Positions 1-8,889 of a stretch of 64,000 bases of DNA are shown here, in pieces. Under the pieces are notes generated by a model. It saw only the letters and a program-made list of their open reading frames with translations, searched no databases and was not told the origin of the DNA. The position numbers and the translations under genes are program-made. Numbering within the stretch: position 1 is the stretch's first letter; each line of letters starts with the position of its first letter. The stretch comes from Salinisphaera sp. (GTDB lineage Bacteria; Pseudomonadota; Gammaproteobacteria; Nevskiales; Salinisphaeraceae): contig NZ_PBYA01000012.1 in the NCBI RefSeq assembly GCF_002729955.1, positions 1 through 64,000 on the forward strand. The letters run 5' to 3'.

Positions 1-79
1 CATCCGAACAGGGCGGCGTCAGCCGCACTGGCCCGAAGGGCGAGCGGCGAAGCCGCGAGTAATCCAGCCGGGCGCGCCA
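1..79 (+). repeat. Repeat copy A with a tRNA-Arg 3'-end fragment
   Basis: Bases 1-40 are repeated exactly at 181-220. The copy ends at 62-79 with ATCCAGCCGGGCGCGCCA, which reads as the end of a tRNA: the 3' part of the T-arm, acceptor strand CGGGCGC, discriminator G and CCA. That acceptor strand fits bacterial tRNA-Arg(CCG/UCU). No matching 5' half is visible, so this is a fragment. Three short hairpins precede it, at 13-26, 31-41 and 44-56. The intact tRNA-Arg would lie left of the window (inference). Confidence 0.75.
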
Positions 80-116
80 TTGCCAGAGTGCGCCGCAGGC
101 GTGCTCTGGCAATGGC
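76..116. repeat. Perfect 13-bp inverted repeat
   Basis: Bases 76-88 are the exact reverse complement of 104-116, with a 15-nt loop that pairs partly as well. The hairpin sits between the tRNA end of copy A and the T-arm-like string ATTCGAACCAGCGA. In copy B those two parts are directly joined. The hairpin segment therefore looks like an extra insertion in copy A. No T-run follows, so it is not a typical terminator. Confidence 0.6.
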
Positions 117-180
117 CTATCCAACTAGCATTCGAACCAGCGACAAATAGACAAGCATGGTTCGACGGATGCGCGCAGCG

Positions 181-274
181 CATCCGAACAGGGCGGCGTC
201 AGCCGCACTGGCCCGAAGGGTGAGCCGGCGTAGCCGGCGAATCATCCAGCCGGGCGCGCCATTCGAACCAGCGA
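181..274 (+). repeat. Repeat copy B with tRNA-Arg 3'-end and inverted T-arm fragment
   Basis: This is the second copy, displaced by 180-182 bases from copy A. The tRNA-end fragment is at 244-261. It runs straight into ATTCGAACCAGC (261-272), the reverse complement of the 5' half of the matching T-arm. The third hairpin (224-238) differs from copy A in both arms but stays paired: GCCGGC-gta-GCCGGC here against GCGGC-gaa-GCCGC there. Structure is kept while sequence changes. An Arg-rich reading frame (157-435) crosses this copy. Confidence 0.75.
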
Positions 275-500
275 GATTAAAAACGGGCGTGGCTCGCCGG
301 GGCGCGACCTACACCGCTCCGACGAAGGCTCTTGCGACACGCCTCGACGGCCTCGCCAGCCAACCAAAACCGTACCCGACCGACGATAAATGCCGTGATT
401 GCCCATCCAGGGGTAGCATCGCGCCACGAACATGACTAGAATACGCCGCCTGCGCCGTCGGCGATCCTCGATCGCAACGGATACGCAGGATGCTTTCGAT
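275..500. other. Gene-free stretch upstream of tRNA-His
   Basis: I see no convincing protein gene here. An open frame from 157 to 435 would encode a 92-residue Arg-rich peptide, but it lacks a clear ribosome binding site. TAGAAT at 437-442 followed by GC-rich sequence resembles the -10 region of a stable-RNA promoter for tRNA-His. The -35 match is poor. Confidence 0.4.
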
Positions 501-577
501 GGTGGGCGTAGCTCAGTTGGTAGAGCCCCGGATTGTGATTCCGGTCGTCGTGGGTTCGAGTCCCATCGTCCACCCCA
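501..577 (+). tRNA. tRNA-His(GTG)
   Basis: A complete cloverleaf with an extra G at the 5' end (501), which is diagnostic for tRNA-His and faces discriminator C574. The acceptor strands GTGGGCG and CGTCCAC pair with one G-U. The anticodon loop is TTGTGAT with anticodon GTG. The T-arm is GTGGG-TTCGAGT-CCCAT and CCA is encoded at 575-577. In E. coli, hisR follows a tRNA-Arg gene, which fits the tRNA-Arg fragments upstream. Confidence 0.97.
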
Positions 578-8510: not shown

Positions 8511-8586
8511 GGGTGCTTAGCTCAGTTGGTAGAGCGTCGCCTTTACACGGCGAATGTCGGCGGTTCGAATCCGTCAGCACCCACCA
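8511..8586 (+). tRNA. tRNA-Val(TAC)
   Basis: A 76-nt cloverleaf. The acceptor strands GGGTGCT and AGCACCC pair perfectly, the anticodon loop is TTTACAC with anticodon TAC, the T-arm is GGCGG-TTCGAAT-CCGTC with one G-U, the discriminator is A8583 and CCA is encoded. It lies 43 bases after hupB. Confidence 0.97.
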
Positions 8587-8598
8587 AGATAAAGTTTC

Positions 8599-8675
8599 GG
8601 AGCGGTAGTTCAGCTGGTTAGAATGCCGGCCTGTCACGCCGGAGGTCGCGGGTTCGAGTCCCGTCCGCTCCGCCA
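8599..8675 (+). tRNA. tRNA-Asp(GTC), first copy
   Basis: A 77-nt cloverleaf. The acceptor strands GGAGCGG and CCGCTCC pair, the anticodon loop CTGTCAC gives anticodon GTC, the T-arm is GCGGG-TTCGAGT-CCCGT, the discriminator is G8672 and CCA is encoded. It is identical over its full length to the copy at 8813-8889. Confidence 0.98.
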
Positions 8676-8710
8676 ATCCGTGTCGACGTACGCGTCGACC
8701 AGGACAAATC

Positions 8711-8740
8711 AAAGACCCTCTCGTTTCGAGGGTCTTTTTT
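8711..8740 (+). terminator. Terminator after tRNA-Val/tRNA-Asp
   Basis: AAAGACCCTC pairs with GAGGGTCTTT around a short loop, and the descending arm runs into six T. It closes the first tRNA unit. Confidence 0.85.
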
Positions 8741-8812
8741 GTTCGCTGTTGTGCAAGTGCTGACGCAGGGGCTCACGATGCAATGCATCGGTCACCGGTC
8801 AGCCATAGGTCA

Positions 8813-8889
8813 GGAGCGGTAGTTCAGCTGGTTAGAATGCCGGCCTGTCACGCCGGAGGTCGCGGGTTCGAGTCCCGTCCGCTCCGCCA
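8813..8889 (+). tRNA. tRNA-Asp(GTC), second copy
   Basis: Identical to the tRNA-Asp at 8599-8675 and 214 bases downstream of it. It is bracketed by its own terminator at 8926-8951. The sequences between the two copies differ from the flanks, so only the tRNA itself is duplicated or kept identical. Confidence 0.98.

Follow-up and report, generated by a model that had tools for sequence, protein, structure and literature searches.

A Salinisphaera array ending in tRNA-Arg(UCU) 3' termini as a member of the RtT/tRNA-linked repeat family, and a host-matched antisense arm in its units

The tRNA-linked repeats (TLRs) were first described in 1978, and 22 units are counted at ten loci in the tRNA and rRNA operons of Escherichia coli K-12, according to the sections of PMC8144298 consulted. 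In the same sections, the role in amino-acid starvation first given to rtT is stated to have been retracted later, and the function of TLRs is given as not known by 2021 with the exception of the 5S-linked ones studied there; these 5S-linked TLRs, rrA, rrB and rrF, bind Hfq/CsrA in vitro. The extension of the family beyond tRNA-Tyr was already in print before the present analysis, as seen in the consulted parts of PMC8144298 and PMC4986893. In the latter, Arrc20 and Arrc21 of Actinobacillus pleuropneumoniae are located upstream of Asn- and Lys-tRNA genes and gave Northern signals.

In this paper, a repeat array at positions 1-261 of the window, the whole 64,000-nucleotide stretch of Salinisphaera sp. 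DNA that was analysed, is compared with these systems. As seen in Table 1, the array is composed of one unit cut at its 5' side and one complete unit, and both terminate in the last 18-19 nt of tRNA-Arg(UCU), including the CCA. Over the overlap of the copies (1-79 and 181-261), 75 of 81 aligned columns are identical. An earlier reading from the sequence alone had recognised tandem copies with tRNA 3' ends about 181 bases apart; the copies are real, as indicated by this alignment and by the model matches given below, and the exact spacing is 182, not 181. As that reading had also noted, no 5' tRNA half is present upstream of either copy, and the array precedes tRNA-His, which together with tRNA-Lys is the first tRNA of the window found by ARAGORN, to the right of the array. 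The extent to 274 that it had given is consistent with the degenerate third copy at 261-300. Tandem Repeats Finder, run on the window, did not report the array. Only short open reading frames are found, and unit lengths range from 172 to 185 nt at the Salinisphaera Arg loci examined; because these lengths vary, it is unlikely, judging from the sequences, that a reading frame such as the protamine-like one (tpr) mentioned in the earlier reading is kept across units, and such a frame is so far without support.

Table 1. Features of the repeat array and its flank, in window coordinates
Feature	Position	Strand	Basis
Unit 1, 3' part only (cut by the contig start), ending in the tRNA-Arg(UCU) 3' terminus including CCA (AATCCAGCCGGGCGCGCCA, 61-79)	1..79	+	sequence; R2 match 6-67
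Unit 2, complete, 182 nt	80..261	+	sequence, folding; R2 match 159-249
Hairpin 80-112, stem extendable via CCA (77-79)/TGG (113-115) pairing; no T-run	77..115	+	stem: MFE fold; CCA/TGG: read from the sequence
Antisense arm ATTCGAACCAGCGAC, reverse complement of GTCGCTGGTTCGAAT (variable loop, T-arm 5' half and T-loop of tRNA-Arg(UCU))	130..144	+	15/15 against the relatives' tRNA-Arg(UCU)
Degenerate sense copy of the T-arm 5' strand, GCATGGTTCGAC; start of the conserved core	155..166	+	folding: paired with the antisense arm within the unit
Core hairpin H1	167..185	+	consensus structure, fold
Core hairpin H2	189..210	+	consensus structure, fold
Core hairpin H3, GCCCGAAGGGT, near-invariant in the family	211..221	+	consensus structures; contrary MFE
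Core hairpin H4	224..238	+	consensus structures
Copy of the tRNA-Arg(UCU) 3' terminus, ATCCAGCCGGGCGCGCCA, 18 nt including CCA	244..261	+	sequence, relatives
Degenerate third copy: antisense arm again (261-274) and core start GCGTGGCTCGCCGG (287-300)	261..300	+	sequence
tRNA-His, next gene to the right of the array, synteny anchor	502..577	+	ARAGORN; relatives

Since base 1 of the window is base 1 of contig C12 in an assembly of 58 contigs, the left part of unit 1 and the tRNA lie outside the contig. The contigs of this assembly break at repeat arrays (window position 1, the end of C58 and the end of C17), and copy numbers from draft genomes are therefore uncertain. The host tRNA is not demonstrable in the source genome, because its 3' end (17 nt, at most 1 mismatch) has no further occurrence in the source assembly. 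In the genus, 14 genomes were searched with the tRNA-His/tRNA-Lys region, and the best match in each was read leftwards. A tRNA-Arg(UCU) with the T-arm GTCGCTGGTTCGAATCCAGCCGGGCGCGCCA, followed by units, is found upstream of tRNA-His in 8 of the 14 genomes, so that both the tRNA-Arg with the same 3' end directly upstream and the additional copies anticipated by the tyrT-like design of the sequence-only reading do exist in relatives. Complete tail copies are present in 6 of these 8 genomes and only truncated units in 2 (L068, L071); the number of units per locus ranges from one to five with truncated ones included, at most 4 being complete. The remaining 6 genomes include the source genome. One of them (L070) has its tRNA-Arg in inverted orientation, with no unit seen, and in the others no tRNA-Arg was found in the stretch read left of tRNA-His; two of the six (G007, G009) have tRNA-Arg(UCU) with units elsewhere (L157, L186). 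The array in the window probably belongs behind the tRNA-Arg(UCU) gene of a Salinisphaera species, as part of the explanation given below.

The hairpin located directly 3' of the tRNA is present at the Arg(UCU), Arg(CCG) and Arg(CCT) loci of Salinisphaera, with arm sequences that differ by locus. Its stem is usually extendable to the CCA (TGG is changed to GGG in L065), and the Arg(UCG) units of the genus do not have it.

According to three properties of the locus, the array can be placed among known repeats. In relatives with the tRNA on the contig, the tail of 18-19 nt is the 3' end of the upstream RNA gene, as in TLRs; two units and a degenerate copy in the window are within the TLR range of one to five tandem units; and the conserved core is shared. 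Two covariance models were used for the core. R1, a model of the 88-nt core, includes the window unit and the K-12 rtT (Tyr) units in its training, and its match on the window is therefore not evidence of membership. R2 was built from 30 cores with no Arg-linked or Salinisphaera sequence, one E. coli K-12 rtT core being included; its structure is poor around H1, with 12 pairs only, since H1 is poorly aligned. R2 matches the window at 159-249 (59.4 bits, E 2.7e-12) and at 6-67 (53.4 bits, E 7.5e-11), the next-best window matches having E-values of 0.57 and 0.93, and it also matches both E. coli 5S-linked repeats given to it (34.0 bits, E 3e-6; 22.4 bits, E 0.0017). Because a model trained in this way matches both window units, the array can be assigned firmly, by sequence comparison, to the RtT/TLR family as a homologue of E. 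coli rtT. At window 8511-8889, two tRNA-Asp genes 137 bp apart are located behind tRNA-Val, and no family repeat was found there by R2.

The Rfam model RtT (RF00391, gathering cut-off 45 bits) gave 23.2 bits for the window, 23.5 for an array on contig C9 and 39.0 and 31.9 for the array at tRNA-Arg(CCG), all sub-threshold, and the window is thus outside the family at gathering level; tRNA-Tyr units in the same genus score above 45. The model is above its cut-off in 10 of 41 genomes (the source and 40 relatives) and, among 14 controls, in E. coli only. The low score of the window is in favour of the claim of the sequence-only reading that a tyrT-like design arose independently and convergently at tRNA-Arg. 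However, this claim is contradicted by R2, which finds both units from training on other tRNAs and genera, and convergence is considered extremely improbable. The feature is real and was rightly seen, and it is a further member of a known family, not a second invention.

Additional members exist within the source genome, where R1 gives 14 matches at E <=0.01; all 14 genomes of the genus were matched. Related arrays are located behind tRNA-Arg(CCG) on C2 and tRNA-Arg(CCT) on C37, and units also behind tRNA-Gln(TTG), tRNA-Gln(CTG) and tRNA-Tyr; at tRNA-Tyr the unit tail is decayed. The array on C9 (C9:16411-16798) is located behind a tRNA 3' remnant, whose 30 nt are those of tRNA-Arg(ACG) on C32, and a tyrosine integrase gene with Arm and SAM-like domains lies near this tRNA-Arg(ACG) (C32:90313); an island appears to have been inserted between the tRNA and its array. 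The 3' part of tRNA genes is a common integrase target. The units copy this part and an integrase gene is close to tRNA-Arg(ACG), which suggested that they may be decoy attachment sites drawing integrases off the tRNA. In this single case, however, the insertion apparently occurred between tRNA and array, and no protection was seen; the proposal is without support and considered very unlikely.

Beyond the genus, R1 matched at least 133 of the 369 Gammaproteobacteria genomes drawn, in at least 106 of 272 genera; this class search scored 12 candidates per genome, so that copy counts are lower bounds. In a draw from the phylum, 50 of 299 genomes were matched at E <=1e-5, and the matches outside the class all fall in one other family. 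Units linked to Tyr, Pro, Lys and Arg tRNAs and to 5S are detected by R1 in E. coli strain E69. Among the matches listed, 108 class loci from 64 genomes were chosen and examined, 82 with an upstream tRNA and 26 without. The tail agrees with the last 20 nt of the tRNA with at most 3 mismatches at 62 of these 82 loci (among the matches listed), the hosts being Gln 24, Ser 22, Arg 7, Tyr 4, Glu 2, Pro 2 and Val 1. When the stretches from a pattern scan of named genomes (at least 116) and the loci of the genus were added, the collection reached at least 253 distinct units, of which 2 (Gly, Met) were discarded as false. The 251 units kept are located, among the matches listed, at 131 distinct host 3' halves of ten amino acids: Ser 39, Gln 35, Arg 34, Tyr 9, Pro 5, Glu 3, Lys 2, Asp 2, Val 1 and Thr 1.

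This distribution bears on a serious rival explanation, in which the hairpin core is a selfish, non-autonomous mobile element. It would target the 3' ends of tRNA and 5S genes and, on insertion, acquire sense and inverted pieces of its target, leaving the gene intact and needing no function in the cell. The large number of tRNA hosts, both inside a single genome and between genera, and the variable copy number among relatives agree with this explanation. So does the tail, which matches the last 20 nt of the tRNA with at most 2 mismatches at 57 of the 82 class loci, usually from AATCC on, and fits one insertion point. Against it, many genera share the hosts Gln, Ser, Arg and Tyr, and the RNA structure of the core is strongly conserved by compensatory changes with G-U use. 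The selfish element is accordingly given a limited probability.

In 30 aligned cores, 15 of the 25 consensus pairs have at least one sequence in which both partners are changed and still pair. G-U occupies 66 and A-C 9 of 750 cells; since a G-U pair reads as A-C in the opposite strand, it is in the RNA of the tRNA strand that the structure is maintained. The four hairpins of the core are preceded by the antisense T-arm region and a short sense T-arm start, and followed by the tRNA 3' end with CCA. In its anatomy, the unit is an inverted copy of the 3' region of the host tRNA, with the conserved hairpin domain inserted in the sense arm. In the MFE folds of 4 of 13 units from other genera (L129, L134, L218, L252), the pre-core stretch and the unit's own tail form one long helix, with the CCA at or near its end and with a small hairpin and the four core hairpins enclosed; this modelled helix may mimic the acceptor/T-stem half of a tRNA. 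The other 9 folded units have less clean folds. For the window unit folded by itself, the MFE structure joins the tail to the 5' strand of H3.

The array deserves further study because of its host-matched antisense arm. Most units carry, before the core, the reverse complement of the T-arm/3' region of their own host. In local alignments of the pre-core stretch with the 3' 48 nt of tRNAs, the own host exceeded the mean of hosts for other amino acids at 61 of 65 class loci (those with a tail of at most 5/20 mismatches and a core 40-130 nt from the tRNA), a result reached in 0 of 2000 permutations. Over the distinct hosts, the same was true in 125 of 131, with mean scores of 13.06 and 8.08 (0 of 5000 permutations, in tests that, like the former, ignore shared ancestry), while 6 did not exceed the mean of the other hosts. 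The own host was above every host for another amino acid in 78 of 131, and above the mean of hosts for the same amino acid with a different T-arm/acceptor in 114 of 129.

Since T-arms are alike and quasi-palindromic, the register was fixed on GAAC without use of the host (118 of 131 units). At offsets -8 to -3, corresponding to the T-stem 5' strand and variable loop, 408 of 708 positions are paired, compared to a shuffled mean of 251 and maximum of 291; at offsets +7 to +15, the T-stem 3' strand and acceptor, 598 of 1061 are paired, compared to 431 and 471 (0 of 2000 shuffles in both). The arm tracks the host tRNA more closely than it does the sense copy of its own unit: where host and sense copy differ, it complements the host at 261 positions, the unit at 57 and neither at 97.

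The arm is not restricted to tRNA hosts. In a 5S-linked unit of E. coli strain E69, GGCAGTTCACTACTC is antisense to 5S at 14 of 15 positions (0 of 2000 letter shuffles), and matches over at least 80% of this unit are present in 566 of 5426 E. coli genomes. No clear arm was found in either of the two tRNA-Arg(ACG) units of E69 (scores 6.0 and 5.5), in one of its three tRNA-Lys units (score 8.0) or in the K-12 rrnB 5S unit (score 5.0); in the scoring of E69, two further 5S-linked units were left out and the unit behind tRNA-Thr was scored only against tRNA-Thr. A published report of an own-host antisense arm was not found in the portions of the rtT/TLR literature searched, which include PMC8144298, PMC4986893, PMC2965389, PMC4710047, PMC7657543, PMC11623569 and PMC12584984.

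Such complementarity could also be kept up passively and have no function: recombination with the tRNA gene would homogenise the direct copies, and the arm, as part of an imperfect inverted repeat, would be corrected by template switching, a known mechanism in DNA. The tandem copy number changes among relatives, as this second serious rival would have it, and the unit L067 behind tRNA-Arg(UCU) on C2 of G003 carries 17 nt more of its tRNA, as after gene conversion. On the other hand, the antisense match pooled over hosts falls to background at offsets -9 and -10 instead of fading at random ends, and passive upkeep does not account for the conserved RNA structure of the core. It is likewise given a limited probability.

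The explanation preferred here, and held to be somewhat probable, is that the units work in cis on the tRNA with which they would be transcribed. The array would be transcribed by read-through from the tRNA promoter, and the enzymes of tRNA 3' maturation would cut after each CCA, giving RNAs of about 180 nt that end like a tRNA. Before the cut, the antisense arm would compete with the T-arm of the tRNA, and unit folding would thereby be coupled to tRNA maturation. The annotated rttR RNA of E. coli K-12 ends exactly at the CCA of the unit. Against this explanation, a T-run follows the tRNA in 78 of 250 units, so that many units would be made only by read-through.

Folding predictions are consistent with such competition. 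The predicted probability of the T-stem is 0.78 for the tRNA alone, 0.08 with its own first unit and 0.64 when the unit comes from a host for another amino acid. Pairing between the T-stem 5' strand and the own unit exceeds a probability of 0.5 in 102 of 130 cases, compared to 24 of 260 foreign-unit controls, and the mean gain of joint over separate folds is 10.8 kcal/mol for the own unit and 3.1 for another, all of these being equilibrium folds that ignore tRNA modification, tertiary contacts and co-transcriptional order. The own arm is thus predicted to be able to displace the T-arm, and from this we infer that it may act as a switch. A counterpoint is that the tRNA is normally folded before the unit is made.

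A wider and more speculative version of the competition model, to which a modest probability is given, would have the 3' trailers of stable RNAs in Gammaproteobacteria and one further family hold a cis folding switch, composed of an arm antisense to the own 3' domain, a hairpin domain and a decoy 3' end. This switch would choose between a matured tRNA with a freed CCA-ended sRNA and a trapped, misfolded precursor. If this is true, TLRs would be the first general device regulating individual tRNAs by their own antisense. In any case, the arm turns repeats without an assigned role into a concrete, mutable base-pairing hypothesis, which can be addressed in E. coli K-12 at the proK unit.

In E. 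coli K-12, a complete and a truncated RtT-type unit are located behind proK (3708100-3709200) and are unannotated in NC_000913.3. In two other E. coli RefSeq records, units behind tRNA-Pro are labelled 'rtT sRNA, processed from tyrT transcript'; annotation of tRNA-Pro-linked units as derived from tyrT would need correcting. The rrnB terminator region is used in many expression vectors. In E. coli, the rrnB stretch 3' of 5S, between the terminators T1 and T2 (described in the part of PMC8144298 consulted), holds a family repeat.

Compared to the described systems, the array shares features with each of them. The BIME-type attenuator candidates of Enterobacteria have sequence similarity to rtT, but in the sections of PMC2965389 consulted they are placed upstream of protein-coding genes such as gatY, rbfA and cvpA instead of behind tRNAs, and these rtT-like elements are left unexplained by a tRNA-bound role. 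Like the units, 3'ETS-leuZ is an RNA from a tRNA transcript outside the tRNAs; in contrast to them, it is reported as a sponge for the sRNAs RyhB and RybB, and its description in the consulted part of PMC8144298 contains no repeat unit. Arrc20 and Arrc21 are, like the window array, RtT sRNAs beside non-Tyr tRNAs, but the host tRNAs given for them are others (PMC4986893). The TLRs of K-12, including the 5S-linked rrA, rrB and rrF, are defined by the same 18-19 nt 3' end of the upstream gene (PMC8144298, as far as consulted), and the window array differs from them in genus and host. In E. coli rtT/rttR behind tyrT-tyrV, with units of 175 and 178 nt, the same core hairpins and the tRNA 3' end with CCA are present, and an antisense arm to tRNA-Tyr, GGAAGGGTGAGAACCTTCGA, is found as well. 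The window arm is directed at the variable loop and the 5' half of the T-arm and does not include the acceptor side, and the array is distinguished from rtT by its host, tRNA-Arg(UCU), and by a hairpin able to embrace the CCA.
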